A stretch of DNA of 51,457 bases from Halalkalirubrum salinum (GCF_005543295.1 NZ_SRSG01000053.1:1-51457), one strand, 5' to 3'; counted from the first letter of the stretch, positions 1 through 25,178 are shown. Translations and numbers: made by a program. The notes: generated by a model from the letters alone, not told the origin.

Positions 1-624
1 TTTAAACGAGTAACGCCCCCAGCAGCCACTCCTGCAAACCGAGTATTGAACGTTTTTGCGTTGGACTGGTATCGCCCGAGTTCACTGAGTTTCGATCCTC
101 TTCAGGCACTCGCAAAACACGGAGAAGATACCCCGATAGACACTTTCCGACCACGGCTACAGGACCTCATCCACCGACGATTCCTTCTTGATACCTGGAA
201 TTACGACTACATTACAGTCTATCCGGGTCACGAAGCCCGGTCACATAGTTCACAATTAGTAGAACTAGCACAGGACGCCGTGCTTGAAACCGAAATCATC
301 TATACGCCGCTTCTTGAACGAACTGAAACCGTCGAACGTCAACGCGAGAAATCGGAGGAAGAACGCCGACAAGTCGCTTTCCATCCCTCTGAATCGCTCC
401 GCACACGAGCAAAACTCCACGATGATACCGTCATTTTGCTCGACGACATCTGCACGACTGGTAGCTCACTCCTTGCGGGGGCTCATCTTCTCCGCAAGGC
501 CGGTGCTGACCGCGTCGTCTGTATCGCTCTCGGTCTTACCCCTGGCGGACCACAGACCGACGTGAAAGAGATCACTGACCCAGAGGCCTCCGCATCAGAA
601 ATCATCGCAGGAGTAGACCAATGA
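1..624 (+). CDS. ComF-like phosphoribosyltransferase, 5' end cut by window edge
   Basis: The frame is open from base 1 with no ATG or GTG near the edge; the first usable codon is a TTG at 46, so the true start probably lies to the left. The PRPP-binding signature of type I phosphoribosyltransferases is clear near the C-terminus: VILLDDICTTGSSL, two acidic residues followed by T-T-G-S-S. The segment before it (YITVYPGHEARSHS) resembles ComF proteins, which accompany DNA-uptake and DNA-processing genes. No zinc-finger N-terminus is visible, but it could lie outside the window. The stop overlaps the start of the DprA-like gene by 4 bp (ATGA), so the two are almost certainly cotranslated. The substrate is unknown; a nucleotide or base salvage enzyme is the alternative, but the DprA partner favours a DNA-related role. 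Confidence 0.8.
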   Translation, partial: FKRVTPPAATPANRVLNVFALDWYRPSSLSFDPLQALAKHGEDTPIDTFRPRLQDLIHRRFLLDTWNYDYITVYPGHEARSHSSQLVELAQDAVLETEIIYTPLLERTETVERQREKSEEERRQVAFHPSESLRTRAKLHDDTVILLDDICTTGSSLLAGAHLLRKAGADRVVCIALGLTPGGPQTDVKEITDPEASASEIIAGVDQ

Positions 625-1538
625 AGCTCAAAAATAAAGCGCTACTGGCTGCCCTCACCGACATCTCTGGGATTGGGGATGCACGTGCATACGAACTATA
701 CAACTACTTCGACGACCCGAGAGATCTACTCAGCGCTCCAGCGTCTCTGACCGACAAATACCACTACGTAGACGAAACCACACTTACAGACATCCGGTCG
801 CTCGAAGACGAGGTCGAAGGCTATATTGACCGTTTCGGTGCCTACGAATCGAATGGAATCACAATTCTTGGTATCACGGAAGATCGGTATCCGGAAGCAG
901 TCCGTGCCGGCCCAGCACCGGTTCTCTTATACGCAAAAGGAAACGTCGGACTCCTGATCGAAGACGCAATCGGTGTCTCAGGATCGCGTGAAACGAACGA
1001 AACCGGGCAACAATGGATCGAATCGCTCTCGGCAGAACTCGGAGAAAATGGGTACACACTCGTTAGTGGTGGAGCCCGTGGAGCTGATACCGCCGCTCAC
1101 CGGGGCGCGTTAGGCACGGATGGTTCAACCATCGCCGTTCTCGGAACGGGCGTCAACGTCGCATACCCGCCAGAGAATCAATCCTTATTCGACCAAATCA
1201 TCGATACAAGCGGGCTCATCCTCTCAATGCGCCCACCCGACGCTGACCCCGCCCGTCATGCGTTCCTTGACCGAAATGAACTCATCGCGGCACTGAGTGA
1301 CGGGATGATTTTCGTTGCCACCGATGGAAATGGGGGAACCATGGCTCAATACAAAATAGCACTCAAACACGATCGGCCTATATTCGTTCCCCCAACAGAT
1401 TTGAATATCGCCCCGAACGACGGATTGGCTACGATCCGAGAAGCAGACACTACAAAGAGTATAAGTACTGCTTCCGACCTGCAGAATACACTTGCAACGA
1501 GGGATGCTGAGCAAAAGAATCTCGATGAGTGGACGTGA
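621..1538 (+). CDS. dprA: DprA/Smf-like DNA-processing protein (SLOG-type Rossmann fold)
   Basis: A 305-residue protein. Residues about 10-40 form a helix-hairpin-helix-like segment (DISGIGDARAYELY). The DprA Rossmann core follows with its usual landmarks in order: IGVSGSRET (about 115), LVSGGARGADTAAH (about 150), TIAVLGTGVNVAYPPENQ (about 170), RNELIAALSDGMIFVA, and GRPIFVPP replaced by DRPIFVPP. In bacteria DprA loads RecA on incoming single-stranded DNA; other members of this fold act in nucleotide-sensing defence. The protein lacks the C-terminal winged helix of bacterial DprA, as its last 40 residues are polar and low in pattern. It is coupled by ATGA overlap to the ComF-like gene upstream. 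Whether the pair works in DNA uptake or in defence cannot be decided from sequence. Confidence 0.85.
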   Translation: MKLKNKALLAALTDISGIGDARAYELYNYFDDPRDLLSAPASLTDKYHYVDETTLTDIRSLEDEVEGYIDRFGAYESNGITILGITEDRYPEAVRAGPAPVLLYAKGNVGLLIEDAIGVSGSRETNETGQQWIESLSAELGENGYTLVSGGARGADTAAHRGALGTDGSTIAVLGTGVNVAYPPENQSLFDQIIDTSGLILSMRPPDADPARHAFLDRNELIAALSDGMIFVATDGNGGTMAQYKIALKHDRPIFVPPTDLNIAPNDGLATIREADTTKSISTASDLQNTLATRDAEQKNLDEWT

Positions 1539-2440: not shown

Positions 2441-2839
2441 ATGCCCCGGGACCTCTACGACTGCACCGCAGCCGAACTCGCAACTCGCTCCGTCGAACAC
2501 CTTGGACAAAACACACCACCAAGCGACGCCGCTGCATGGCTGAATTCGAACGGCTACGACGCCGCCCCTGTCTACGCTGGCGACGACCCGATCGGATTCA
2601 TTCACAAACACGACGTCACCACCGACGACGACGGTGACACTCTCGACAACCACCTCACCCCGCTGACCATCGATTACATGATCAGCGGCGACACCTCGTT
2701 CACAGACATTCTTTCCGCAGTCATTGAGCAACCCGTCTTCTTCAAGTCGGTGATTGAACCCGAGTCTGGCATCGTTCTGATTGTCAGGTCGTTCGTGGAG
2801 CGTACCGCTCGCGGACAACTGGTGAAAACAGCGAAATGA
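2441..2839 (+). CDS. CBS-domain protein, short and possibly C-terminally truncated
   Basis: 132 residues. The pattern DAAAWLNSNGYDAAPVYAGDDPIGFIHKHDV (shown in pieces: NGYDAAPVY, PIGFIHKHDV) is a typical CBS half, followed by a second half centred on LTIDYMISGDTSFTDILSAV. CBS pairs bind adenosyl ligands and regulate partner proteins. Longer haloarchaeal relatives known to me continue well beyond a GIxTRxDL motif; here that region reads GIVLIVRSFVERTARGQL and the protein stops soon after, so loss of a C-terminal domain by frameshift or deletion is possible. The 55-bp gap to the AddB-like gene suggests that it could be the first gene of that transcript. Confidence 0.7.
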   Translation: MPRDLYDCTAAELATRSVEHLGQNTPPSDAAAWLNSNGYDAAPVYAGDDPIGFIHKHDVTTDDDGDTLDNHLTPLTIDYMISGDTSFTDILSAVIEQPVFFKSVIEPESGIVLIVRSFVERTARGQLVKTAK

Positions 2840-2894: not shown

Positions 2895-4955
2895 GTGCCA
2901 TTATCATCTGTTCAACAACAGTTCACAGGAACGCTAGTCTTGTCATCGTTCGGTACAGAGAACGTCACACAAACCGTAGAAAATGAGTACCGATCGCTTC
3001 TTGATGAGCACGATTCTGAGGAGGTGCTCGTGATTACGGGCGCACCAACGAGCACCAAGACGTTCCGGGAGGCGTTGAGTGAGGAGATCCCGGGCCCAGC
3101 GATACCGTACGTGACGTCGCTTGTCGTGCACGCGACTGATGTTCTCAATCAGACTGACGATCGTGTCATTCTCTCCGACGCGTTGCGGCGTGAACTCCTC
3201 CACCGATTTCTCGCAGACTACGAGTGGGAAACCGAGTACTTGCGACGAGCGGCTGTGCAACCGTCGTTTATTGAGGACGTGGATGCAGTGATGGGCACGA
3301 TTTCTTGGCAGACAGTCACGCCTGACGAGGCGCCGGAACTCCAGGCGATCGCGGCTGCACTTGAGGCGTTCCACGGATGGCTCGCTGAGCACGGTCACAT
3401 GGAGCGCGGGCAACTCATTTCGGAGGCGCTTGCCGTGCTCGCTAGTGATACCCGCAATGATGTCGTTGATGTAGAGGCGGTGTTAGCAGTGGAGTTTGAG
3501 GAGTTCTTCCCGCTCGACCGCGCGTACCTCGACGCGCTCGCGGGGGACTGTGAGCTCGTCTGTATCGCTGAGGAGAACGGGAGTGTGCGTCGTACGTGGG
3601 TTGAGGACGGCCCTGTCACGGAGTATGTCTCGTTCAACGAGTCTCGACGTGGGGTATCGGAGACACCGTCAACGCGACCGGCTGCAACGGCAGCGTATTT
3701 CGCCGAAGAAACGGTTCTAAAAGATCCGGGAGCAGGGTTGGTTTCGGTCCTTGCTGCAAACTCTAGTGACGAGCAACTCGCGGAGATTGCCAACGAGATC
3801 GAAGACCTCGTTGCGCAGCCGGACTGGGGGTACGACGACATCGCGGTCGCCACGAAACAAAGCGGCAGTGCTGTAACAGACACGATCGAAGCGCTCGAAG
3901 GCACCGGAATTCCGACGGAATCGACGACTGTCATAGGATTCGGTGACGATCCTGCGATTCGAGAACTTCTCGCCGCCGTTCGACATCTCGCCGAAGAGGA
4001 TGAAGATGAAAGTCCCGAGCACGGCCCTGACCTTGATACGGAACGCTTAGATCGGGTCAGCGAAATGGATAGCCTCGAAAACGCGATCCGGTGGTGGGCG
4101 ACAGATTCGGGGTTAAAACAGCGGATCGCGGATCGAGCGTCACCGCTTGACGCGCGGGCGCAGTTCGGGAACGTTCGACGGGCGTTCCGCATGGCTGAGT
4201 TTCTCGAAGAGACTGCGTTCGTGGATACGACGTGGGGATCGTTCAAGCAGATGCTCGAACGCGCCCACGAGTACGCCTCGCAGCAGAATCAGACGAGCGC
4301 GACTGACCTCGACGGTGGCGTCCGTGTCGATCACTTGCAGGCGATTAAGAACGAGTCGTTCCGCGCGGTTTTTCTGGTGAACCTTGTGGACGGTGAGTAC
4401 CCGGGTGACGCGTTCTTGACACGGTTGTTCCCGACTGAGCGTGTCGTGTCGATGCCGGATTATCCGGGTGTCACGCAACTCGATGAAGGGGATGTGGATG
4501 CAACGTTCCCAACGACATCGACCGCGTCTGGACTACCGTTCGCGCAGTACCACACAGAGCACGCGCGACGCCAGTTAGCGATTGGGGCTGGTGCCGCGAC
4601 AGAGCGGCTGTACTGTTGTCTCTACGAGTACGAAGATACGGCACTCGAAGAACGTACGCAGGCGTCTCGATTCCTCACCACAGCGTATGAAGATCTCCCG
4701 TGGGTGATCGAGGCGGACGAACCACACATTACGAGTGAACGAGCAGCGGAAAAGTACCTGTTGTCGCGGGTTGATGACACGCTCGCGGAGGTGCGTCGCG
4801 CGAATAGTCAGAACGTGACGGTGTCGCTTGACGAGGTTGAATCGGAACTCGGTGAGATTCAGGACCTCCTCGATGAAAGCGGTTCCCGCGGTGCCGAGCT
4901 CCGGGAAGCGTTGCGTGCGCGTGTCGAATTTGCGAACGGGGAGGTCCGGCGATGA
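2895..4955 (+). CDS. AddB-like inactive-helicase subunit (split AddB, N-terminal part)
   Basis: 686 residues with a GTG start, the only good start near the open-frame beginning. It resembles the helicase-like portion of AddB/RecC-type proteins. Near residue 49 GAPTSTKT occupies the place of a Walker A but lacks the glycine before Lys. Near residue 476 VRVDHLQAIKN and VFLVNLVDGEYPG match superfamily 1 motif V as seen in AddB. Near residue 558 RRQLAIGAGAATERLYCC matches motif VI with the arginine finger region altered. It is therefore likely to bind DNA (for example scanning for a sequence) rather than to pump. It overlaps the next gene by 4 bp. Together with that 300-residue nuclease it would make a full-length AddB, so AddB appears to have been split into two genes. 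Confidence 0.7.
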   Translation: MPLSSVQQQFTGTLVLSSFGTENVTQTVENEYRSLLDEHDSEEVLVITGAPTSTKTFREALSEEIPGPAIPYVTSLVVHATDVLNQTDDRVILSDALRRELLHRFLADYEWETEYLRRAAVQPSFIEDVDAVMGTISWQTVTPDEAPELQAIAAALEAFHGWLAEHGHMERGQLISEALAVLASDTRNDVVDVEAVLAVEFEEFFPLDRAYLDALAGDCELVCIAEENGSVRRTWVEDGPVTEYVSFNESRRGVSETPSTRPAATAAYFAEETVLKDPGAGLVSVLAANSSDEQLAEIANEIEDLVAQPDWGYDDIAVATKQSGSAVTDTIEALEGTGIPTESTTVIGFGDDPAIRELLAAVRHLAEEDEDESPEHGPDLDTERLDRVSEMDSLENAIRWWATDSGLKQRIADRASPLDARAQFGNVRRAFRMAEFLEETAFVDTTWGSFKQMLERAHEYASQQNQTSATDLDGGVRVDHLQAIKNESFRAVFLVNLVDGEYPGDAFLTRLFPTERVVSMPDYPGVTQLDEGDVDATFPTTSTASGLPFAQYHTEHARRQLAIGAGAATERLYCCLYEYEDTALEERTQASRFLTTAYEDLPWVIEADEPHITSERAAEKYLLSRVDDTLAEVRRANSQNVTVSLDEVESELGEIQDLLDESGSRGAELREALRARVEFANGEVRR

Positions 4956-5854
4956 GTTCGTCGCTCTCCCCGTCGCGGTTAGCGACGTACGCGACGTGTC
5001 CGCGCCTGTACGACTACCGGCACGTACAGGATGTTAACACTCCAGATCGGACTGAACTGTACCTTACTCAAGGAACGATTTACCACGAGACGATCGAGGA
5101 TGTCTGTGATGCAACCAGCCGTGACGATGATCCGGGGGTGATTTACGACCGGGCGATGCGGATCTTCGATGCGAAGTGGGACGAGCACAGTACGCCGGAT
5201 GATTACAAATCACTGGCACATCAAGAGTACCAGCGCGTTGAGAATCGTACTGCTGTGGAGTCGTTTTTTGAGCCGGATGGTGGTGATGGGATCGAGCACG
5301 CTCGGCGATCGCTTGCCACGGAGTGCTGGGTTGAATGTGACGTTGATGGGCGAGCGCTGCATGGGAAAGCAGACAATGTTGTCAGAACTGACGAAGGTCT
5401 CCATATTTTTGATTACAAGCGGAACACTCGCGGTGTGCTCTCGTCAGGGACAGCCGAGTATCTCGGAGCGCATCTCGACGGAGAGGCGCACGAACCGAAG
5501 CGCGTGCGAAATGCGTTCCAGACAGCGACGTACATTGAGGGGGTAAAGAACGAACCGTTCTACGAGGACGGTATGGAGGTCCGGTTCAGTTTCTACGGGC
5601 TTCTCAACCACACGTCGTTCGAAAGTACCCCGGACGGGTACGACGTGTCTGCACGTGGGTGGTCACGGGAAACGACTGAGATTTACGACGAGCACTACGA
5701 CACAATTTGGGCGTTGATTCGGCATGCGCACGACGGCATCACGGCCGAAACCTACGCCCCAGAGCCCTTCGAACTCATCCACGATGAGGCGTGCGCGGAC
5801 TGTGACTACCGGGAGATGTGTGCTGATCGGTTGTCACCGGAGGTGCGACAATGA
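4952..5854 (+). CDS. PD-(D/E)XK nuclease with Fe-S cysteine staple (AddB nuclease-domain-like)
   Basis: 300 residues. The first cysteine lies at residue 16 (YATCPRLYDYRH), the remaining three near the end as C-x2-C-x5-C (CADCDYREMC, about 281-290), the pattern that locks a [4Fe-4S] cluster in Cas4 and AddB nucleases. Catalytic residues are visible between: His in GTIYHETIE, Asp in GKADNVV (about 142), and D-x-K in IFDYKRN (about 155-157). It probably cleaves single-stranded ends exposed by the helicase encoded next door. It overlaps the genes on both sides by 4 bp. A stand-alone Cas4-like protein is the alternative, but no cas genes or CRISPR array are present and the AddA/AddB-like neighbours favour end-processing. 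Confidence 0.8.
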   Translation: MSSSLSPSRLATYATCPRLYDYRHVQDVNTPDRTELYLTQGTIYHETIEDVCDATSRDDDPGVIYDRAMRIFDAKWDEHSTPDDYKSLAHQEYQRVENRTAVESFFEPDGGDGIEHARRSLATECWVECDVDGRALHGKADNVVRTDEGLHIFDYKRNTRGVLSSGTAEYLGAHLDGEAHEPKRVRNAFQTATYIEGVKNEPFYEDGMEVRFSFYGLLNHTSFESTPDGYDVSARGWSRETTEIYDEHYDTIWALIRHAHDGITAETYAPEPFELIHDEACADCDYREMCADRLSPEVRQ

Positions 5855-8800
5855 CCGACCACAGTGACGACTACCCGTCGTGGTACCCGGTCCCAGAGGA
5901 AGAGGTGTCGCCGGAGCCCCAGCAGCGAACGATTATCGACTCTGACGCGTACCCGATGCGTGTGCTCGCCGGCGCGGGAACAGGAAAAACGTTCACAATG
6001 GTGCGGAAAATCGAGCACCTCATCGACGAGGAAGACGTGTCCCCAGACCGGGTTCTCGCGTTGACGTTCACGAATAACGCTGCGGACTCGATGCGTGAGA
6101 AACTCAACGCGAAACTCGGGACGGCCGGGTACGACATTGACGCGTACACGTATCACTCCATTTGTAACGAGATTCTCACTGACTACGCGTACGACGCCGG
6201 GATCGATCCTGACTTCGAGGTCGCCACGGATGCCGAAAAGTATGCGATCGTCATCGACGTCCTTGATGAGATTGAGTATCGGTCGGTGAAACCCAACGTG
6301 TACGGCAGTGACGGGTACGCGTCAGGTGCGGCGTCGAAACTTCTGAATTTCATCGGGTCAATGAAACGCAGCGGGATTACGCCCAACGACATTGACGCAT
6401 TCCTCGGCCCCGCTGACCGTGTCTACGAGGTCGCCGGCCTCTCGGAACGCGTCGAGACGATCGCCAGCGACCACTTGGGCGGCCGCTCCGTGTCGAGCGT
6501 ACTGGACTCGCTTCCAGACGTGCGTGCCGACCTCGTCACTGAACGCGACGCGCTCAGGATAGACGGAATGGTGGCCAGCGCACACGAATTCCTCGACGGT
6601 CTCGTGGATCTTTGTGACGCACTAGAAGCAGCGTTCGAAGCCCATGAGGCAGGCAAGCGGGAACTTCCAGAGAATGCACATAAGCTCCCGAAGTACCTTC
6701 TCGGTGGATACGCGAACGGTGCACCGACAGGCATTCCGGACGATCTCAACATCGAACTCACAGACCATCTCGACTCGTTCCTCTCAGACTGTCTCACCGC
6801 CCGTGATTTGACAGCAGGGTACGCGGCGTATGAACGCGAACTTGACGAGCGGAACCTCATCGACTTCGACGGCCTGGTCGTCAAGACGGCTGCGCTGATG
6901 GACTCGCCGGTCGGTGAGAAAATCGCTGAGCGGTGGGACTACGTGTTCTGCGATGAGTTCCAAGACACCGATCGCCTTCAGTTTGAGCTCGTCACGTCGC
7001 TTGTCACCGATGATAACCTGTTCGTTGTCGGCGACGACGATCAGGCGATTTACGAGTGGCGCGGTGCGCACGTCGCCAACATCACTGAGGAACTGGACGA
7101 CGCGTTCGCGGCACTCACGGACGAACCTCTCGAAGAGAACTTTCGTTCCCGACAACCGATCCTTGACCTTGCGAACGAAGCGATTCAGAAACTCGATCAT
7201 CGTGAACGGCACAAAACCCTTACTCGTGTCAACGAACCCGCGTACAACGGTGACACCGTCGCCACCATCGAACTACCTGCTGACGATGATTCGGACGGTG
7301 CAGCCCAGCTTCGCACCGTCGTGCAGAATCTAATGAGTGGAGCAGCAGAAAATCTCGATACAGCGTACGACCCCGGTGAGATCGCGTTACTCGTTCGGAA
7401 AAACAGTCACGCGACCCCTGTCATCGAGGAATTCGACGACGCCGGCATCCCGTACCAAGTTGCTGGCGATCTAGCCACGGAATCCGTCGGTGTCAGGACC
7501 GTCACTGCGTACCTCAAAGCGCTTGCACGGCCGAAAGACGAAGTGAGTTGGAATCGTGTCCTCTTGATGCGATACCGGCTCTGTGACGCAGACCTCCGCA
7601 CACTCAACGCCGGTGACGACTTGCTCGTGGAGACGCTCCAAGAAACACCGCTCGACGAGTTCACAGAGCCCGATCGCGTCGCAAAAGCCCGCGAGCATGC
7701 GACGGAGCTACTCGAACTCCGCGACGCAGCGTCACTCAGCCGTTTGTACCGTGAACTCACGGATCTTACAAACATTGAGTGGTATCTCAGCGAGCAAGAA
7801 CGCCGGGACCTCGCCCAACTTGAAGACGTCATCGAACAGTACGGCGATAGTGCAGTCCAACCACCGCTTACTCCGGAGTTCATCGATTCGCTCGAACATT
7901 ACGATTCTCTGTTCGATGAGAGTGGCACTGCACCCACGAGTCAACCGGATGTCGCCGACGACGCGGTCAACGTGATGACCATCCACAAAAGCAAGGGCCT
8001 GGACTTCCCGGTCGTCCTCATCCCGCAAGTCACGGCTGACGAGTGGGCACCGAGTTCACGCACGTACGACGCGTTCGAAACAAGCCTTTCAGATGGCGCA
8101 CAGGCAGCGTTTGCTGAGGACTTCGTTGAGCGTGATGCTCATGAGACCCGTCGTGTGTTCCACGTCGGGATCACGCGTGCCGAGGACATCCTCGTCCTGC
8201 AGGGTGGTAGCGAGGAAAGCGACGATACTGCGGACGAAGACGCTGTTTCTCGATTGGTTGACGACGTGCTTCCATCTCGAATCCCGTGGCAGCCAAAGCG
8301 AGGACAGCTCCCGCTCTGGACCGACGTCGAAGAGTGTTTCCCAGACGAAGCAGCAGACTGGACTCACACGTTAGCCAGCAAGCCGATCGGGAACGTCGGT
8401 GGGACCGTTACGCATCATGGGGAGGAGCTCCCAGTTGAGACTGCACGCGACCGCGTGGTACACCTCGCAACAGCCTCTCTCAACGGGGGCCTCTCACCGG
8501 GAGATGGGCGAGAAACACTCCAAGTTACGTCATTGAGTGGTCCATCGACACCGTCACCATCACTCACCCATAGCTACACCTCACTCGCAGCGTACGAACA
8601 ATGTCCGCGGAGTCACTACCTAGACTACGTGGTAAACGCGTTCGCTGATTACCAGGAATCTACGACAACTGATGGGAGCGATGTGTCCCAACGTGATATC
8701 GGGTTGTTGTTCCACGACACTGCAGAGCAAGCCGCGAATCATGGCACGGACCGCCGTGAGGAGTGGTATGAAATCTGCGAGCGGATCGCCAGTCAACGCC

Positions 8801-9306
8801 GCGCCGAGGATACACTCCCAGCGGCGAAAGAATGCATCGACCGCTACTTTCAGTTGGATCTCCCCAAGTACGAAATCATCGATTCAGAGCGGGAGTTCGA
8901 ACTCGATATCAATGGGTACGAACTCGTTGGGTACATTGACGCCGTCTACCGGACACCTGGCGATGAACTGGTTGTTATCGATTACAAAGCGACCGAACGT
9001 CACCGTGACCTCCAAGACGACAAGCAACTTCCTATCTACCTGTTGGCATGCCGAGACCTGTACGATAAACCAATCAAACAGGCAGGATACGCGTACGTCG
9101 GTGAGATCGGCCCAAAAGTTGAATCACGGCTGTTCACCGAAGCCGAACTAGAAGCAGTCAAAAAAGACGTGACAGAATCGATGAACCGTATTACTCAATT
9201 CTCGTTCAGCCGGTACACTGCAGGTGAACACTGCCAATGGTGTCAACACAACCAGCTCCCCTGCGCACCAGATTCGCTCGCGGTCGGTCTTGGACTCGAA
9301 AAGTGA
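5851..9306 (+). CDS. AddA/RecB-like superfamily 1A helicase with C-terminal PD-(D/E)XK nuclease
   Basis: 1151 residues. UvrD-type motifs appear in order: Q motif PQQRTIID, Walker A GAGTGKT (41-47), motif Ia LALTFTNNAADSM, motif II DEFQDT (about 368), motif III GDDDQAIYEWRG (about 395), motif IV EENFRS, motif V TIHKSKGLDFPVV (about 712), motif VI VGITRAED (about 772). From about residue 910 a RecB-type nuclease domain follows: CPRSHYLD, LLFHDTAEQ, GYIDAVYR, VVIDYKATER (about 1042), and C-x2-C-x6-C at the end (CQWCQHNQLPC). The fourth cysteine in CPR completes a probable Fe-S staple, which textbook AddA nucleases lack. It is the motor of a double-strand-end-resecting complex with the two preceding genes, and could serve recombination or defence against foreign DNA. 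Confidence 0.88.
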   Translation: MTDHSDDYPSWYPVPEEEVSPEPQQRTIIDSDAYPMRVLAGAGTGKTFTMVRKIEHLIDEEDVSPDRVLALTFTNNAADSMREKLNAKLGTAGYDIDAYTYHSICNEILTDYAYDAGIDPDFEVATDAEKYAIVIDVLDEIEYRSVKPNVYGSDGYASGAASKLLNFIGSMKRSGITPNDIDAFLGPADRVYEVAGLSERVETIASDHLGGRSVSSVLDSLPDVRADLVTERDALRIDGMVASAHEFLDGLVDLCDALEAAFEAHEAGKRELPENAHKLPKYLLGGYANGAPTGIPDDLNIELTDHLDSFLSDCLTARDLTAGYAAYERELDERNLIDFDGLVVKTAALMDSPVGEKIAERWDYVFCDEFQDTDRLQFELVTSLVTDDNLFVVGDDDQAIYEWRGAHVANITEELDDAFAALTDEPLEENFRSRQPILDLANEAIQKLDHRERHKTLTRVNEPAYNGDTVATIELPADDDSDGAAQLRTVVQNLMSGAAENLDTAYDPGEIALLVRKNSHATPVIEEFDDAGIPYQVAGDLATESVGVRTVTAYLKALARPKDEVSWNRVLLMRYRLCDADLRTLNAGDDLLVETLQETPLDEFTEPDRVAKAREHATELLELRDAASLSRLYRELTDLTNIEWYLSEQERRDLAQLEDVIEQYGDSAVQPPLTPEFIDSLEHYDSLFDESGTAPTSQPDVADDAVNVMTIHKSKGLDFPVVLIPQVTADEWAPSSRTYDAFETSLSDGAQAAFAEDFVERDAHETRRVFHVGITRAEDILVLQGGSEESDDTADEDAVSRLVDDVLPSRIPWQPKRGQLPLWTDVEECFPDEAADWTHTLASKPIGNVGGTVTHHGEELPVETARDRVVHLATASLNGGLSPGDGRETLQVTSLSGPSTPSPSLTHSYTSLAAYEQCPRSHYLDYVVNAFADYQESTTTDGSDVSQRDIGLLFHDTAEQAANHGTDRREEWYEICERIASQRRAEDTLPAAKECIDRYFQLDLPKYEIIDSEREFELDINGYELVGYIDAVYRTPGDELVVIDYKATERHRDLQDDKQLPIYLLACRDLYDKPIKQAGYAYVGEIGPKVESRLFTEAELEAVKKDVTESMNRITQFSFSRYTAGEHCQWCQHNQLPCAPDSLAVGLGLEK

Positions 9307-16218: not shown

Positions 16219-16793
16219 CTGACATCGGTGTTTTCGAATAGGTACCCGGCGTAGTCGCGTGGTTCAGTGCGGGTGCGTGAGTAAATCTCTATCTCATCCG
16301 TGTCATACCGACATATGAAGCCATCAAAAATACAAAACAGGAACATATCGTTTTTCTGCATTTCAGGGGCTCTAGGGCGTATTTTCAACTCAAAACACGA
16401 CTTCTCGAAGCGGTTCTGCGCTACAGTTATTGCAAATGGGAGTTGCAGGCGAGACTCACTGATCTCGATACCTTCAGATGTCGCAGTTTAGTATAAGACA
16501 TCTACTGGTATTTTTATTCTATGTCTTTCGAACGGGTAACGCGGGTCTGTACAGGTTCTCATCCCTGTGATAGGACCTGGCAATGGCGGAACATGGAACT
16601 GTTGCCGACCAAATGGGCACTCAATGGTGATAGCCGGTGAGTCACCAGTCGGTTCGGGTCCACGCAGTTGTGTTCACTCGTCAACGTTCTCTCGCAAGTC
16701 GCGTAGTTCACCGCTTTTCGGGGATCGGCGGCAGTCTCCTCGGTGGCAGGGCGTTGTGGCCCAGTCAGCCAGCGACAACTCTCGGAGGGATGT
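16219..16793. other. 575-bp intergenic region upstream of the giant surface gene
   Basis: Short ORFs here (16300-16491, 16567-16797) have no recognisable features. The region likely contains the promoter of the giant gene; an AT-rich tract GTATTTTTATTCTATG near 16509 is the best TATA-like candidate but lies far (about 280 bp) from the start codon, which would imply a long leader. Confidence 0.4.
16784..16789 (+). promoter_or_regulatory. Shine-Dalgarno sequence deciding the start of the giant gene
   Basis: GGAGGG lies 4 bases before the ATG at 16794. It supports that ATG, which opens directly into a signal peptide, over the upstream open frame from 16743 and over the overlapping out-of-frame ATG at 16790. 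Confidence 0.65.
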
Positions 16794-19700
16794 ATGAATA
16801 AATCTAGCCAGCGCGTTGGCGCGGTGGCGTTTGTTTTCCTGCTGGTCGCTTCGTTAGGGCTCGTGTCCTTTGCTGCCGTCCCCGCCGCAGCCGATCACAC
16901 CGACACATCCGGCGACGGTCACTTCACTGAAGGAAGTAGCGAGAATGTCTCTGTAAATCAATCATTATCGCTGAATATCGATGACAAGGATCAGACCGTC
17001 GACGAAGCACGGATCATCCTCGAGAATCCACATAAGGATGACACTATCGAGGTCGACGACTCGGTCAACGACAACGTCGACGTCAAGAGTACTGCCGCGA
17101 ACACCACCGATGAGATCGGTGAGACGCGGATGGTCATCGAACTGGAAGGGCTTGATAGCAATGGTGACCCTGCCCCGACAAAGGTCAGCGACTTCGAGGA
17201 AGTGTTCCAGACCGCCGAGTTCAGGAACACCGCATCGGACACCTCGCTCGAAGAGCGCCGGATCCGGTTCTCGCTGGGGTCACGGCTTCCACTGCCTGAG
17301 ACCGGCCACTACTACGGAAAATCGTCCGACCCGAAATCGTGGCCGGATGCTAACGATGCCACGCACACGTACCCACTAAACGGAACTCTCGAGGTTGACG
17401 GATACCTCGCAACGATTCGCTCCGAGACCGAGAACGAGTGGGTCAAGTCGGTCGCCGACGGGGACTATGTCTTGATCGGTGCCTACGATGGCAACGACGA
17501 TCAGTCCCAGGGAGTATTCGAGTGGGAGACCGGTCCCGAAGACGAGGTTCGCTTCTACGATGATAACAAAGATGATGGCGAGAAGTTGTTGCGTGGGTAC
17601 GCGAACATGGACCTCGACGGCGGTGACTACCTCGTAATGAGGGACTCAGGGGTCTGGGCGGACACAGATGGCACGACCAAATTCGACTACGTATATGAGT
17701 ACGGTGACCACGCCATCGGCTCGGACCTGAACATGGTGTCGACGGTCAAGATCTCGGACCCGGACGCGGGCGGCGCAAGCTTCCCCCTGACCGAAGATTT
17801 CAATTCCGGTTCCGTGCCGTCGAACTGGACCATCGGCGGTGACGCGGACTGGTCAGCCCCACACAACGGATCGGCGAGCGATGAGACGCTCCGGCTCACG
17901 ACTGATGGTGAATTCGAGGCTGGCTACGGGCTCTTCGACAAGGGGTTCGACTCTGAAAAGGGTGTGTACGCAGAATTCGATTACTACGCTGGTGATGGAA
18001 GTGGCGGCGCTGATGGACTCTCATTCTTCCTCGTGAACGGGACAGTCACCGACGCGTCGAATATCGGTACTTCCTCTGTTGGCGGTGCTGGCCTCGGCTA
18101 CACACAACTCGACAACGGCTCAGACCTTGATGGCGTTAACTCGAACGGCGCTAGCACACCAGGATTCATCTCGGACTCCGAGGAACAGGGCGTTCCTAAT
18201 GCGTACGTCGGCGTCGGGTTCGACGAGTATGGTTTGTTCTCTGACGACGGAGAAGGCAAAGACGGTGGCCCAGGACAGACTGCGAACAGCGTCGCCATCC
18301 GCGGCGAAGGCGACCTCGGCACGTACGGGAGCGGCTACGCCTACGAGACGGGTGAGGACGTCACCGAGATCGATTCTGCCTATCGCATCGACGGTGGCTG
18401 GCGGAAGGTTCGTGTGAACGTTCAGCCAGCCGCTAGCGGTGGGACCAACCTGACCGTGGACATGAGCTGGGACGACGGCGACAACTGGGAGACGGTCGTC
18501 GATGAGTACACCTACTCAAATGACCCGCCGTCGACGTTGAAACTGGGTTTCGCTGGCTCGACGGGGAGTTCGACAAACTATCACGCAATCGATAATTTGG
18601 AAGTCAGTCAGTTACCGATTATCGACGGTGTCCGTGCCTCGAATCCGACGAGCGACAAACTCGACTTCCAGTTCGATGCCGATCAGGAACTCTCGACGAT
18701 CAAAGTCGACGTTTCGGGCCCCGATCCCAGCAAGCGTACGCTCGACGAATCAGATTTCACCGAAACCGAAAATGCGGACGGGAACTATACCTACTCGCTC
18801 GACACGGAGGTGACGGGTGATGAGGAAGGCGATTACGACTTTACATTGAACACCGCAGAGAACTCGGCTGGACTCAAGGGCGCTGCAGGCCAGTCGGACT
18901 CGGTGAATATCGCGTCGCCGCCATCGGTGTCGACGTTCTCGCTCGACGAGGGCAAAGGTGACGAGATCAAGACGACTGTCGAATCAGACAAGGATCTGAA
19001 AGGTATCGAGGTCGACATCGAAGACCCGGATAGCGAGACGGAGACGCTCACGCGTACCGACTTCACCGAAACTGAAGATAGCGGCACCTACACGTACACC
19101 GCTGACTACACGACGGAGAAGACCGGGACCTACACCGGGACGCTCCAGTCCGCCGACGACGAAGACGGCAGGGACGGCGCAAGTTCGGAGGTGGACACTG
19201 TCGATATTTCGGAACCCGATGACAGCGAAGGTGGTGTCCGCCATACGACCAAAGATGGCAACCTCTTCCTGGGCAGTGATTTCATCGAACTCGGCATTCG
19301 ATCGGACGGTGGCTTCGGGTCGGAGGTCACTGCGCCGAGTAGCTTCTTCGGCAACGACCGTGGGAACATCGGGATCTACGCCGACGTGGATGGCTTCTAC
19401 AACGACACCTACGACTTCCGCTACGAGTACTTCCTACCGGGCTCCCCGGAGGAGCGTTGGTCGATGGGCTACGGCGGACCCGATACTGGAACGACCGCCT
19501 CGAACGGCCGCAACGTCTATAGCGACCCGCCAGAGATGCCGACGATCGGCGGCGGACTTACGGACCAGAGCACCGACAAGGTCGGCGCTGGCAACCTGAC
19601 CAGTGAGTTTGACGACCTCGAAATCGACCAGCGGTACGAGTTGCAACCCGACAGTCGCTACTATAAGACGACCGTCAAAATCACGAACACCGGTAGCGAA

Positions 19701-22700
19701 GTCGAGGACGTCCGCTACCAGCGGTCGTTCGACCCAGATAACGGTGTCGACGAGGGCTGCGGCTTCCCGACCAACAATACGATCGTGAATCAGCAACCCA
19801 CGGACGACAACGTGCTGGTGAAAGCTGAGTTGACGGACGATGACCTCGACAACGATTGGTGTGACGTCGGTTCGGTCTCGAAGATCCCTGTGTTCTACTA
19901 CTCGGTTGAACCGGACGCACGCGTCTCCTACGGCGACTTTGGGCTCACGCCAGATAACCCACCGTACGCAGACCGTGAATACGACAACCCACCCGAGGCA
20001 GGGAGCTCGAAAACTGCCGACAGCTACATCGCCATTACCTTCGATGCCGGGACGCTCAAAAAAGATGAGACCGTCGAGTACACCTACTATACGGGTTTAA
20101 CAGACGATATTGAAACGACGGTTGCAGACGTCGAAAAAGAGACTGAAGCACAGCCACCGAAGGCGGATGCAGGCGATAACCGTACTGTCGACGTCGGCAA
20201 GACGGTCGAGTTCGACGGTTCGAACTCCACGGCGAACGTCAGCATCAACAGCTACGACTGGGACTTCGGCGATGGCTCCAACGCAACCGGTGAATCCGTC
20301 AGCCATAGCTTCGACGACGCGGGAACCTACGATGTCGAGTTGAACATCGCCGATGGGAAGGGACAAACCGATACTGACACCGTGACCATCGAGGTCGAGG
20401 ATCCGCCGGGATTGAACACCAGTGACGGCGAGTCGGAGTTCGTCGAGTTCCGCGATCCAGTGACGGTCGATCCCGATATGGAAATCACCTCACCGTCGGA
20501 CATCGACGGGGCGACAGTGAAAATCGAAGACGGGTTCGACTCCGACGCAGATGTTCTTGAGGCCACGGATGATCACGGGATTGAGTCTGATTACAACGCA
20601 AAAAAGGGCGTGCTCAACCTCTCCGGAGAGGCCTCCGCCGCTGACTACCAGGAGGTGCTGCGCAGTGTCACCTACAAGAACACGGAGGGCAAACCAGCGG
20701 CAAGCGAGCGAAAAATTGTCTTCACGGCTGGCCCGGATGTCCTTCGGTCGGAGGAGACCGGCTACTTCTACGAATACGTCGAGGACGAGGGAGTGACGTG
20801 GAAAGAGGCACGAGGCGCGGCGGAATCGAGGGATCACTTCGGTCTCGACGGCTCGCTCGCGACGATCACCTCCGAAGCCGAAAACGACTTCCTCGTCGAC
20901 CAGTATGACGGAGGCGGCTGGATCGGTGCGAACGATGCCGACGAGGAGAGTGTCTGGCGCTGGGTAACCGGCCCCGAGGGTGAGGAAGCCGACGGCGACG
21001 GTCGCCACTTTTTCGACCAGACGGCCTCACATACGGGCAGCCACCGGTTCGCACCGATGTACCCAGACCCACCAGAGGGTGTTCCGGGGGGCGGTGAGGC
21101 AGTCGACGGTGAGTACGAGAACTGGGACCCACGCCACGAGCCGAACAACAAGTTCCCGATGAAGGATGGCCAGGACTACGGCTACCTCTGTTCGGACACG
21201 CGGGGCTGTTCGGGTGGACAGTGGATGGACCTCAACGGCGAGCTATCGAGTGAGCCCACACCGGCGGGCTACTTCGTCCAGTACGGCGGCATGTCCGGCG
21301 ACCGCGACGTGACGACGAGCGCCAACCGCACCGTAGCGGTCACACCCGACCGAGAACCAACCGCTGAGACCGGGACAAGCGAAACGGAGGCGGACCTGAC
21401 CGAGGAGATCGAGTTCGACGCCTCCGAGTCCAGCGACGACTTCGGCATCGTCGACTACGAATGGGACTTCGGAGACGGGGACGACGACAGCGGCGAGACG
21501 GTCACACACACGTATGATTCGGATGGCACCTACACTGTCACCCTGACAGTCGAGGACAATCAGCGTCAGACCGATTCCAACACGATGACCGTCAACGTCA
21601 TAGACGATACGGTCCGCATCGCCGACGCGGGCCCCAATCGGACGGTCGACGAGGGCACAGCCGTCGAACTCGACGGAAGTAACTCCGAGGCGAGTGGCGA
21701 GATCACGGATTACGACTGGGATCTCGGCAATGGCGATTCGACCACCGGGGAGCAGCCGATCATCTCCTACGACGACCCCGGGAATTACACTGTCGAATTA
21801 GAGATCACCGACGTGTACGACAAGACTGCGACTAACACCAAAACGGTCGAGGTGCGCGATACGACGGCACCGAAAGCGGATGCGGGATCGAATGAAAGCG
21901 TCGACGAAGACAGATCCTTCGAGTTCAATGCAAGCGGATCTGCCGATAACGTCGACATCGACAGTTACGAGTGGGACCTCTACGGCAACGGAACGACGGA
22001 CGCAACTGGCGAAAAGCCGAGCCACACGTTCGATGAACCGGGCAGCTACGAGGTCGAGTTGACGATCAGTGACGCTGCTGGCAACACCGACACGGATTCT
22101 GTCACCATCACTGTCGACGACAACACGGCACCGACGGCCGTCGCCGAAGCCGACGGGACCACAGTTCGTGAGGGCGAACTGATCGAATTCGACGGTAGCG
22201 ACTCCGAAGACAACGTTGCCCTGGAATCATTCGAGTGGGATTTCGACGACAACTCAACCAACGCAACGGGGTCGTCACCAACACATCGCTTCGCCGAGGA
22301 GGGAACGTACGAGGTCGTACTGACAGCGACTGACACCAGTGGGAACACGGACACCAATACGACGGATATCACCGTTGAGGCTGTCCCCGAACTCTCCGCG
22401 AACGGGAGTGACGCGGAGTACGTAGAGAAACGCGATCCAGTATTCGTCAACGAAAGCTTGAACATTTCCGGCACCGGTGACCTCGGCGGGGCGACGGTCA
22501 GCATCGACGACGGGTTCGAGGCTGCCGATACGCTTGAGTTCAACAAATCGCTGGCCAACGACAAGGGCATCTCGGGTAGGTACGATTCCGACAATGGCGT
22601 CCTCTCCTTCGATGGGATGGCGAATGAGACGGACTACCGCGACGTCCTGCGAACGGTCACCTTCGAACACGATGGCGACGATCCCTCGGAAACCGACCGA

Positions 22701-25178
22701 ACGATTACCTTCAGCCTGGGTAAAGACGGACTGTACTACGAGGGAACCGGCAACTACTACGAGTACGTCGCCGACGACGGCATCACCTGGCACGACGCCC
22801 GGGCGGCCGCCAACGAGAGCGATCACCTCGGTTTGCAGGGGTATCTCGCTACGGTAACGAGCGAGGGCGAAAACGACTTCATCCAGAACAAACTCCGTGG
22901 CGCAGGCTGGATGGGTGCCTCCGACGCCGAAACTGAAGGTACCTGGCGGTGGGTCACTGGACCGGAAGGCACAGAAGACGGCGGCGACGGCCGGCACTTC
23001 TTCACACAGACGGCCTCCGACGACGGAACGCCGGACGACATCTACGACGGCTCCACGCCGGGTGGCGGCAGTGCAGAAAGGTCCAACTACACGAACTGGG
23101 ATATCAACGAACCGAACGATCACCTTGCTGGCGAGGACTACGCCCACTTCTGTATGGGTATCAGCTGGTGTCCGAACGGTTACTGGAACGACTTCGAGTA
23201 CGACCACTCCGGTATCGACGGCTACGTCGTCGAGTACGGCGGCCGGACGGACGATCCCGATTTGAACCTGATAGACACGACGAACGTATCGGTCTCGCGC
23301 GACGAAGCGCCTCGGGCCGAAGCTGGCAGCGACATCGAAGTGGGCCTCGACGAGCAGATCGAATTCGACGCCAGCAGGTCCACCGATGACTACGGCATCG
23401 ACGGCTACGAGTGGGACTTCGACGACGGAAACACCAGTCGCGGGGAAACTGTCCTCTACGCGTATTCGGAGGACGGCCGCTACGACGTCACGCTCACGGC
23501 GACGGATACCAGCTTGCAAACGGACGCAGATACCATCGGCGTTCGCGTCATCGACGATTCAGTCCTCGTCGCCAGCACAGGCGGCAACTACACTGTCGAC
23601 GAAAACACTGAACTCACACTCGACGCATCAGAGTCGGAGGCCAGCGCGGGGATCAAATCCTACGACTGGAAGTTCGATAACGGGTCGACGGCGAGTGGGG
23701 AGACTGTCGAGTACACCTACGAAGACCCCGGCACTTACGAGGTGAACCTGACGATCACCGACGAAGGCGACAATACCGCGTCGACGGCTGCTGCCGTCGA
23801 GGTGGCGGATACAACTGACCCGACAGCGGACGCTGGTAGTGATTTCACGGTCGATAACAGCACGGCGGCAGCATTCGACGCCACCGATTCCGAGGACAAC
23901 GACGCCATCGAGTCCTACGAGTGGGATCTCACCGGCAACGGCGAAACCGATGAGACTGGCGCCGAACCCGAGTTCACCTACGCAACGCCCGGCACGTACA
24001 CGGCAGAACTGACGACGACCGACGCTGCCGGGAACACCGATACTGACACCGTCGAGGTTACTGTAGAGGACATAGAGGCGCCGACGGTCGACGCAGGTCC
24101 AGACAGGACTGTGGATGTTGACGAGGAGGTAACCTTCGATGGCTCCAATAGCACCGACGACCTCGCTATCGACACCTACGAGTGGGACCTATACGACAAT
24201 GGCACGACAGACGCCACCGGTGCCACTATCAACCACACCTACGCTGTCGGCGAGGAAGGAAGCTACGAGGTCGAACTGACTGTGACGGATACGGCCGGAA
24301 ATAGTGACACGGATACAACGACGGTCGCTGTTGAGGACCCGCCATCGATCTCTGAGTTCTCGATGGCGAATCCGACTGACAAAAACCTCACAATCAGCTT
24401 CGACAGTGACGATGATTTGAGCACTGTGAAGGTCGATGTTGAGCATGATGGGACAGCCGAAACGACGTTGAACGAGGCTGACTTCACCAACGAGAGTGGA
24501 ACCTGGTCTGCAACCTACGAAGGGAACAGCGATGGAATCTACAACGCGACGCTCGTCACAGCGAAGAACGCTGACGGTTACAACGGAGCCAGTGGCCAAT
24601 CGGCCAGCACCACTCTTGATGAGGACCTCGACGCCGATATCACCGCCAGCAGCGGGGACGTGAGCGTGGAAAGTGAGGTTGAGTTCAACGCCGGACGCTC
24701 GTCGTACCCGGACAATGCTACGCTGAGCTACGAGTGGCGTGTCGACGGTGACCTCAGTTCGACCAGCGAGAACTTCACTCACACCTTCGACTCGCCCGGC
24801 GAGTACCCCGTGGAACTCAGCATCACAGCTGATGGGGCGAAGTCGACTGACACGGTGAATATCACCGTCGAAGACCGCACCCCGCCGGTGGTCTCGCTAG
24901 TGGCCAACGACACCACACCGTCGGTCGGCGACACCGTCTCCTTCGACGCGACGAATACGACCGACGACGTCGAAATCAAGGGCTACGACTGGTCGATCAC
25001 CGGCAACGTGACGATCGTCGACTCCGATGACGGCATCCGCAATGTCACCTACGAAGAGCCCGGTATGTCCAGCGAGTCGGTCACGGTCACCGACCCCTCG
25101 GGGAACGAGGACACCGAGACAGTCATGATAACGGTTCAGGGCGGAAACGCCACTATGGATACCGAGAGCGTCGACTAA
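16794..25178 (+). CDS. Giant secreted lectin/PKD surface protein, N-terminal part (ends at in-frame TAA)
   Basis: 2794 residues. Signal peptide 1-34 (VAFVFLLVASLGLVSFAAV, cut near PAAADH). Order, approximate residues: C-type-lectin-like (CTLD) domain 170-310 (GYLATIRSETENEW); L-type lectin 335-607 (ADGLSFFLVNG); two beta modules 610-808; an unrecognised roughly 300-residue domain 812-1110 (GNLFLGSDFIELGIRSDGGFG); PKD 1121-1203; beta module plus CTLD 1206-1512; four PKD 1521-1862; beta module plus CTLD 1866-2165 (GYLATVTSEGENDFI, GYVVEYGG); four PKD 2169-2515; beta module; two PKD 2616-2783. PKD repeats show the usual YEWDFGDG and HTYDSDGTYTVTLTV. It probably binds glycans and mediates adhesion outside the cell. 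The stop at 25176 cuts it from its anchor; the same frame continues as 25179-27791. Confidence 0.85.
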   Translation: MNKSSQRVGAVAFVFLLVASLGLVSFAAVPAAADHTDTSGDGHFTEGSSENVSVNQSLSLNIDDKDQTVDEARIILENPHKDDTIEVDDSVNDNVDVKSTAANTTDEIGETRMVIELEGLDSNGDPAPTKVSDFEEVFQTAEFRNTASDTSLEERRIRFSLGSRLPLPETGHYYGKSSDPKSWPDANDATHTYPLNGTLEVDGYLATIRSETENEWVKSVADGDYVLIGAYDGNDDQSQGVFEWETGPEDEVRFYDDNKDDGEKLLRGYANMDLDGGDYLVMRDSGVWADTDGTTKFDYVYEYGDHAIGSDLNMVSTVKISDPDAGGASFPLTEDFNSGSVPSNWTIGGDADWSAPHNGSASDETLRLTTDGEFEAGYGLFDKGFDSEKGVYAEFDYYAGDGSGGADGLSFFLVNGTVTDASNIGTSSVGGAGLGYTQLDNGSDLDGVNSNGASTPGFISDSEEQGVPNAYVGVGFDEYGLFSDDGEGKDGGPGQTANSVAIRGEGDLGTYGSGYAYETGEDVTEIDSAYRIDGGWRKVRVNVQPAASGGTNLTVDMSWDDGDNWETVVDEYTYSNDPPSTLKLGFAGSTGSSTNYHAIDNLEVSQLPIIDGVRASNPTSDKLDFQFDADQELSTIKVDVSGPDPSKRTLDESDFTETENADGNYTYSLDTEVTGDEEGDYDFTLNTAENSAGLKGAAGQSDSVNIASPPSVSTFSLDEGKGDEIKTTVESDKDLKGIEVDIEDPDSETETLTRTDFTETEDSGTYTYTADYTTEKTGTYTGTLQSADDEDGRDGASSEVDTVDISEPDDSEGGVRHTTKDGNLFLGSDFIELGIRSDGGFGSEVTAPSSFFGNDRGNIGIYADVDGFYNDTYDFRYEYFLPGSPEERWSMGYGGPDTGTTASNGRNVYSDPPEMPTIGGGLTDQSTDKVGAGNLTSEFDDLEIDQRYELQPDSRYYKTTVKITNTGSEVEDVRYQRSFDPDNGVDEGCGFPTNNTIVNQQPTDDNVLVKAELTDDDLDNDWCDVGSVSKIPVFYYSVEPDARVSYGDFGLTPDNPPYADREYDNPPEAGSSKTADSYIAITFDAGTLKKDETVEYTYYTGLTDDIETTVADVEKETEAQPPKADAGDNRTVDVGKTVEFDGSNSTANVSINSYDWDFGDGSNATGESVSHSFDDAGTYDVELNIADGKGQTDTDTVTIEVEDPPGLNTSDGESEFVEFRDPVTVDPDMEITSPSDIDGATVKIEDGFDSDADVLEATDDHGIESDYNAKKGVLNLSGEASAADYQEVLRSVTYKNTEGKPAASERKIVFTAGPDVLRSEETGYFYEYVEDEGVTWKEARGAAESRDHFGLDGSLATITSEAENDFLVDQYDGGGWIGANDADEESVWRWVTGPEGEEADGDGRHFFDQTASHTGSHRFAPMYPDPPEGVPGGGEAVDGEYENWDPRHEPNNKFPMKDGQDYGYLCSDTRGCSGGQWMDLNGELSSEPTPAGYFVQYGGMSGDRDVTTSANRTVAVTPDREPTAETGTSETEADLTEEIEFDASESSDDFGIVDYEWDFGDGDDDSGETVTHTYDSDGTYTVTLTVEDNQRQTDSNTMTVNVIDDTVRIADAGPNRTVDEGTAVELDGSNSEASGEITDYDWDLGNGDSTTGEQPIISYDDPGNYTVELEITDVYDKTATNTKTVEVRDTTAPKADAGSNESVDEDRSFEFNASGSADNVDIDSYEWDLYGNGTTDATGEKPSHTFDEPGSYEVELTISDAAGNTDTDSVTITVDDNTAPTAVAEADGTTVREGELIEFDGSDSEDNVALESFEWDFDDNSTNATGSSPTHRFAEEGTYEVVLTATDTSGNTDTNTTDITVEAVPELSANGSDAEYVEKRDPVFVNESLNISGTGDLGGATVSIDDGFEAADTLEFNKSLANDKGISGRYDSDNGVLSFDGMANETDYRDVLRTVTFEHDGDDPSETDRTITFSLGKDGLYYEGTGNYYEYVADDGITWHDARAAANESDHLGLQGYLATVTSEGENDFIQNKLRGAGWMGASDAETEGTWRWVTGPEGTEDGGDGRHFFTQTASDDGTPDDIYDGSTPGGGSAERSNYTNWDINEPNDHLAGEDYAHFCMGISWCPNGYWNDFEYDHSGIDGYVVEYGGRTDDPDLNLIDTTNVSVSRDEAPRAEAGSDIEVGLDEQIEFDASRSTDDYGIDGYEWDFDDGNTSRGETVLYAYSEDGRYDVTLTATDTSLQTDADTIGVRVIDDSVLVASTGGNYTVDENTELTLDASESEASAGIKSYDWKFDNGSTASGETVEYTYEDPGTYEVNLTITDEGDNTASTAAAVEVADTTDPTADAGSDFTVDNSTAAAFDATDSEDNDAIESYEWDLTGNGETDETGAEPEFTYATPGTYTAELTTTDAAGNTDTDTVEVTVEDIEAPTVDAGPDRTVDVDEEVTFDGSNSTDDLAIDTYEWDLYDNGTTDATGATINHTYAVGEEGSYEVELTVTDTAGNSDTDTTTVAVEDPPSISEFSMANPTDKNLTISFDSDDDLSTVKVDVEHDGTAETTLNEADFTNESGTWSATYEGNSDGIYNATLVTAKNADGYNGASGQSASTTLDEDLDADITASSGDVSVESEVEFNAGRSSYPDNATLSYEWRVDGDLSSTSENFTHTFDSPGEYPVELSITADGAKSTDTVNITVEDRTPPVVSLVANDTTPSVGDTVSFDATNTTDDVEIKGYDWSITGNVTIVDSDDGIRNVTYEEPGMSSESVTVTDPSGNEDTETVMITVQGGNATMDTESVD
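25176..25178 (+). other. In-frame TAA interrupting the giant surface protein
   Basis: The coding pattern is continuous on both sides: DTESVD before and GKATINSTNTTSLNI after. Homologous repeats in the same protein have VDFG or IDFG at this place, so the stop replaces one aromatic residue. A TAC or TAT tyrosine codon is one base away. Confidence 0.8.

Follow-up and report, generated by a model that had tools for sequence, protein, structure and literature searches.

Three adjacent genes of Halalkalirubrum salinum, here termed B1, N2 and A3, constitute a real arrangement that is conserved in haloarchaea, and structural models strongly support the view that B1 and N2 represent an AddB split into two genes. 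The window, i.e. the whole stretch of 51,457 nt that was analysed (GCF_005543295.1, NZ_SRSG01000053.1), contains the three genes on one strand, and each overlaps the next by 4 bp, as the first-pass annotation had read from the sequence (Table 1). The parts are publicly annotated as “DNA helicase UvrD”, “PD-(D/E)XK nuclease family protein”, and “ATP-dependent DNA helicase”, and a literature search found no description of this conserved three-gene arrangement. In a review of DNA repair in Haloferax volcanii, DNA-end resection is assigned to Mre11-Rad50, and a term search of that review found no mention of AddAB (PMC7776575). A conserved AddAB-like complex, with genes in about a third of the sampled haloarchaeal genomes, would fill this gap in end resection.

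Table 1 Features of the trio and of the upstream region in the window
Feature	Coordinates	Strand	Description
ShosT-like phosphoribosyltransferase and ShosA-like DprA	46..1538	+	PADLOC ShosT E 2e-17, ShosA E 2e-51
Small CBS-like gene	2441..2839	+	Separated from B1 by 55 bp; sub-threshold CBS match (E 0.003)
B1	2895..4955	+	686 aa, GTG start; AddB helicase-like half, without Walker A
N2	4952..5854	+	300 aa; separate AddB-type PD-(D/E)XK nuclease of the Fe-S type, active site intact
N2 Cys16	4997..4999	+	First Fe-S ligand, predicted from conservation
N2 catalytic span (H45, D141, D154, K156)	5084..5419	+	Nuclease residues, 40/40 in lineage I
N2 C281-x2-C284-x5-C290	5792..5821	+	Remaining Fe-S ligands, predicted; kept in 86/86
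A3	5851..9306	+	1151 aa; UvrD-type SF1 helicase fused to a PD-(D/E)XK nuclease of the Fe-S type
A3 Walker A (GAGTGKT)	5971..5991	+	Present in every complete homologue
A3 nuclease domain (Cys918, H955, D1030, D1044, K1046, C1128-x2-C1131-x6-C1138)	8572..9264	+	PDDEXK_1

Distribution of the trio and its two lineages

When 84,980 species genomes were scanned with an alignment of B1 in a pattern-limited search, 80 B1 loci were obtained, all of them haloarchaeal, and a phylum-wide profile search gave strong B1 matches in haloarchaea only. No relative of the trio was found on viral contigs in a pattern-limited search. Within the order, 146 of 392 sampled genomes have a B1 match, including a few with weak scores that may be due to other UvrD-type proteins.

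The comparison comprised 86 non-redundant loci, all haloarchaeal. Forty of them belong to lineage I, defined by a B1 that is >50% identical to that of the window, and 46 to lineage II, for which the identity is ~33%. In a tree of A3, each lineage occupies one side of a branch, and the trio of the window belongs to lineage I. Conserved synteny had been named at the outset as support for a system, and it was found: B1 and N2 lie together in all 86 loci, invariably as two genes, and A3 accompanies them unless the contig ends (one copy, at locus L055, appears broken). The gene order is common to both lineages despite the identity of ~33%. The pN/pS values were 0.14–0.26 for the window genes versus three lineage I relatives and mostly 0.06–0.26 across both lineages, with one outlier of 0.39 that is based on few synonymous changes. 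The co-recurrence in relatives, the conservation of eight cysteines in the 86 loci (see below), and the values of 0.14–0.26 show that the arrangement is not due to chance.

Lineage II is mostly confined to Natrialbaceae, mostly at a fixed locus, and 104 of the 117 Natrialbaceae genomes have a B1 of either lineage. Genes for CBS-domain and NUDIX-like proteins, among others, recur in its neighbourhood, and this context looks as expected of a core gene set. Lineage I is patchy, members of different host families are intermingled in its gene tree, and B1 was found in 16 plasmid records. Its neighbours are variable and include Mrr, a PDDEXK_4 protein, a DUF234 ATPase, an Eco57I-type methylase, and a McrB-like AAA protein. 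The suggestion that the trio might sit in defence islands therefore held in part, i.e. the surroundings of lineage I are defence-like, whereas lineage II is not found in a defence context.

B1 and N2 as two halves of AddB

The first protein had been described as AddB-like without a proper Walker A. B1 indeed lacks GxxGxGKT, and the region aligned to the Walker A of PcrA reads SSFGTENV. The Pfam and NCBIfam matches of B1 to UvrD_C and AddB were both sub-threshold, and the score for the AddB equivalog TIGR02773 (12.3 bits) did not reach the cut-off of 903.7. When a profile built from 12 sequences was compared with solved structures, the best match of B1 was the AddB chain 3u44_B (E 2.2e-7), followed by PcrA.

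AlphaFold2 models were generated from alignments of 64 sequences for B1 and 63 sequences for N2, with pLDDT values of 83.5 and 88.4, respectively; the last 75 residues of B1 are less confident (pLDDT ~54–73). Residues 11–683 of the B1 model align with residues 2–769 of AddB (Z 24.4–24.9, 611–615 residues, rmsd ~5.3), so that the 686-residue protein is collinear with AddB rather than of an unrelated fold. UvrD and PcrA align with Z values of 25–28, over residues ~11–610 only. As UvrD helicases score at least as high as AddB on the core of B1, its identification as AddB rests on the extension past residue 610 and on the partner N2.

Residues 1–280 of the N2 model align with AddB 786–1138 (Z 13.2–14.2). 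The two AddB matches thus meet at 769/786, which places the split of the gene at the boundary between helicase and nuclease, and the split AddB of the first-pass annotation is borne out by this collinearity. The top structural match of N2 was the AdnA nuclease (N2 1–280 on AdnA 792–1039, Z 14.9), and further matches were exonuclease RecE, the Argonaute-associated Cas4 protein ACE1, and Dna2 (Z 12–13.7), as well as RecB (Z ~8). In Pfam, N2 matches PDDEXK_1 (E 1e-22); with the NCBIfam cas4 equivalog it scored 30.9 bits versus a cut-off of 65. Sequence searches of N2 and of the A3 nuclease against solved structures gave no meaningful match, and for these domains the fold comparison alone was informative.

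The description of N2 as a separate nuclease with Cys16 and a C-x2-C-x5-C motif proved correct, and this is the cysteine pattern of the AddB nuclease. Position 16 is a cysteine in all 40 loci of lineage I and in 45 of the 46 of lineage II, with a gap in the remaining one, and C281, C284, and C290 are present in 86/86. Lack of conservation of the cysteines had been named as evidence against the idea; the four cysteines are kept in N2 as well as in A3, and from this conservation they are predicted to be ligands of Fe-S clusters. The catalytic residues of N2 behave differently in the two lineages. H45, D141, D154, and K156 are kept in 40/40 lineage I loci. In lineage II, H45 is gone, D154 is replaced by R in 44 loci and by Q in 2, K156 likewise by R in 44 and by Q in 2, and D141 is the sole catalytic residue retained. 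A second trio in the genome of the window, on contig 49 (locus L024, 9972–16458), belongs to lineage II, and its N2 has lost the catalytic residues, with QYQ in place of DYK. By these lineage-specific residues, the N2 site is intact in one trio of the genome and lost in the other. The split separates the role of the AddB nuclease domain from that of the scaffold, and, as the Fe-S motif of lineage II persists without catalytic residues, the structural role of the staple is directly testable in a natural experiment.

A3, a motor nuclease of the UvrD-Cas4 type

A3 is, as anticipated, a full UvrD-type helicase with a nuclease of its own and a C-x2-C-x6-C motif. Pfam identified UvrD N and C domains and PDDEXK_1 at residues 908–1134 (E 3e-26). 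The catalytic residues and the four cysteines of the nuclease (Cys918, C1128, C1131, and C1138) are invariant in 81 homologues, and every complete copy, whichever its lineage, has an intact Walker A and nuclease, apart from one E959A exchange.

The score of A3 for the AddA equivalog TIGR02785 was 130.2 bits versus a cut-off of 707.65. Among solved structures, AdnB was matched better (E 2.7e-58) than AddA (E 1.8e-52) or RecB. The nearest relatives found outside the trio are four UvrD-Cas4-like fusions of methanogens (E 1e-95 to 1e-101), which have Walker A, the catalytic residues, and at least three of the four cysteine columns in common with A3; the spacing to the fourth column differs by one residue. 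They have no B1 neighbour, and the tree of A3 had long outgroup branches. By sequence, A3 is closer to UvrD-Cas4 fusions than to AddA and is not an AddA in the strict sense. With these relatives, the trio is best described as a motor nuclease of the UvrD-Cas4 type plus a split AddB. An AddA with an Fe-S staple had been regarded as new. The four cysteines are invariant, as stated above, but the closest relatives found are UvrD-Cas4-like fusions, for which a nuclease of the Fe-S type is known from the literature, so that this feature is not itself new.

Methanogen ORFs of ~1020–1070 aa that matched the B1 profile were considered as unsplit AddB and rejected, as they are A3-like UvrD-Cas4 fusions without B1. 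Matches of A3 to GajB of Gabija in PADLOC were rejected as general UvrD similarity. One methanogen locus (L118, 7884–14377) contains an unsplit AddB-like protein (1049 aa) beside an AddA-like protein (1141 aa), i.e. an archaeal two-chain AddAB-like pair. The AddA-like protein has no CxxC, whereas the C-terminus of the AddB-like protein contains cysteines of the Fe-S type, the first spacing of which is wider.

Association with Argonaute

A Piwi protein is encoded in the retrieved stretch of 13 of the 40 lineage I loci (PADLOC pAgo E 0; Pfam E 4e-21). In 11 of the 40, the genes for Argonaute (Ago), the PLD protein AgaP, B1, N2, and A3 follow each other on a single strand in one apparent operon with near-constant spacing (~63, 5, −4, and −4 bp); the AgaP of locus L048 is shortened internally. 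The same five genes occur in this order on a plasmid of Salinigranum marinum annotated in RefSeq. Of the 41 Piwi genes in the sample of the order, 12 are located ≤5 kb from B1, versus ~0.06 expected if the two were independent, a rough estimate that takes no account of shared descent. The other 29 lineage I loci, including that of the window, have no Argonaute operon directly upstream, and no Piwi gene was found in the genome of the window.

According to the main text of Cheng et al. 2024, Ago and AgaP are the APAP system, which restricts a plasmid and a single-stranded DNA virus (PMC11442185). Of further genes close to some ago-agaP operons, that text names only “a helicase-encoding gene”, and no description of the three-gene AddAB-like set or of the 5-bp coupling was found there. 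An earlier survey lists an orthogroup of UvrD and PD-(D/E)XK in Argonaute operons (PMC6299218). In E. coli, small DNAs bound to expressed bacterial Argonautes are asymmetric around Chi sites, consistent with break processing by RecBCD, and RecBCD is not strictly required for the formation of Argonaute guides (PMC10269773). A Cas4-like nuclease and UvrD scored together with Argonaute in a plasmid-exclusion screen of Synechococcus elongatus (PMC10653904).

The operon suggests a concrete route by which these Argonautes may obtain or process DNA. Tentatively, the lineage I trio might be a machine dedicated to feeding DNA to an Argonaute immune system; it would unwind and fragment invader DNA for guides or for the disposal of products. 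The trio might then be a built-in version of the interplay between RecBCD and Argonaute, and lineage II its sister, a repair enzyme whose Fe-S nuclease domain has kept the staple and lost catalysis; we consider this speculative extension less likely than not. The trio of the window lacks an Argonaute and is more safely interpreted as an enzyme that processes linear DNA on its own.

Comparison with known systems

The trio resembles bacterial AddAB (Bacillus subtilis; PDB 3u44, 3u4q, 4ceh, 4cei, 4cej) in having an AddB-like helicase fold, an Fe-S-type PD-(D/E)XK nuclease, and a second subunit with UvrD motor and nuclease, and B1 plus N2 are collinear with AddB. In contrast to AddAB, the AddB part is cut into two genes at 769/786, B1 lacks Walker A, the motor subunit also has a four-cysteine motif, and N2 of lineage II lacks catalytic residues. 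Mycobacterial AdnAB (PDB 6ppj, 6ppr, 6ppu, 7sjr, 9np6) provides the top match of N2, but AdnA is a single chain, in contrast to the split B1/N2 with its B1 devoid of Walker A.

The UvrD-Cas4-like fusions of the pfam12705 branch, which Hudaiberdiev et al. 2017 described as likely to take part in several defence systems (PMC5704561), combine, like A3, a UvrD helicase with a Cas4-like nuclease with Fe-S-type cysteines. However, the published account places them on their own or next to restriction-modification or Dcm genes and mentions no AddB-like partner (PMC5704561), and their motif is C-x2-C-x5-C. The Piwi and PLD genes of APAP are those upstream of 11 lineage I trios; this operon of a long-A Argonaute and AgaP is present in these relatives but is absent from the genome of the window. 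Lineage II resembles RecC of RecBCD in combining a helicase-like scaffold with a nuclease-fold domain that would no longer cut, but this domain keeps four Fe-S-type cysteines and is a separate protein, and the trio has no RecD-like subunit.

Possible functions of the trio

The trio is probably a DNA-end helicase-nuclease similar to AddAB and AdnAB, with a function in repair in lineage II and co-opted for the processing of invader DNA in lineage I. Complex formation, polarity, and biological role are predicted by analogy with the known enzymes. A3 would be the only ATP-driven motor and would carry one nuclease, and B1 would be a motor-dead AddB scaffold that contacts the other strand. N2 would be the AddB nuclease domain as a polypeptide of its own with strand specificity, and its predicted Fe-S cluster would staple the fold and aid the binding of DNA ends. 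In lineage I, both nucleases would be active, so that linear DNA would be unwound by the complex and both of its strands degraded or resected, and this lineage would be a mobile defence or DNA-interference module. In the subset with an Argonaute-AgaP operon, the trio would either supply single-stranded DNA and pieces of guide size or complete the degradation of invader DNA that has already been cleaved. A3 would be the only cutting subunit of lineage II, whose locus would encode a core end-resection enzyme. “Defence” and “end resection” need therefore not be alternatives, as the Natrialbaceae lineage looks like core repair and that of the window like a mobile, defence-linked one.

The trio might also be a stand-alone anti-virus system that destroys incoming linear DNA like RecBCD, with the Argonaute operons as later accessories. 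We regard this as plausible but less likely than not. It would fit the 29 of 40 lineage I loci without a directly upstream Argonaute operon and the window genome without Piwi, the neighbourhood of Mrr, PDDEXK_4 protein, Eco57I-type methylase, McrB-like AAA protein, and ShosTA-like genes, and the proposal that UvrD-Cas4 fusions are parts of defence systems (PMC5704561). However, defence genes pool in islands whatever their joint function, and the lineage II homologue lies outside a defence context; its fixed context speaks against a general role in defence.

It is rather doubtful that the trio serves purely in end resection during DNA repair in both lineages, with defence neighbours and Argonaute operons hitch-hiking in variable regions. 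Lineage II is near-universal in Natrialbaceae (104/117 with B1) and mostly located beside the same chromosomal genes, and bacterial AddAB and RecBCD are repair enzymes, but lineage I is patchy, partly plasmid-borne, and has a gene tree mixing host families, and the 5-bp spacing between AgaP and B1 in several host families is not given by chance co-location. A reading in which B1 is a UvrD-like protein that has degenerated, N2 is a Cas4-like nuclease on its own, and the two form neither a split AddB nor a complex with A3 is very unlikely. Although the helicase core of B1 is best matched by UvrD and PcrA folds and B1 passed the cut-off of none of the profiles, its alignment with AddB spans the full length of the protein, the match of N2 starts where that of B1 stops (769, then 786), and the three genes were never seen apart on long enough contigs.

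Further genes in the neighbourhood

The small CBS-like gene upstream of B1 has no homologue among the neighbours of other trios, and it is possibly an operon member in the genome of the window only. The ShosT-like and ShosA-like genes overlap by 4 bp and are a candidate archaeal ShosTA defence pair; they were rejected as partners of the trio, as they are absent from every other trio locus compared. Two small proteins of 89–118 aa are encoded at 1640–2326 on the minus strand of the window and recur beside trios at L040 and L057 (the larger one also at L067), and they are possibly a toxin-antitoxin or other accessory pair.

An AAA/DUF4143-type ATPase of ~560 aa (e.g. L037, 144–1820) adjoins lineage I trios in 16 loci, with or without Argonaute and usually in divergent orientation, and is a possible further member of the system. 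In a sub-branch of lineage I, a protein of ~375 aa with a weak match to DNA-polymerase-B-type exonucleases is encoded convergently to A3 or just past it (L060, 16381–17508; also L030, L061, L065, and L066). Further downstream, at 16743–27791, the window encodes a PKD-repeat protein of 2811 aa, followed by a protein of 848 aa with Ig-like repeats of the HYDIN/CFA65/ASH type.
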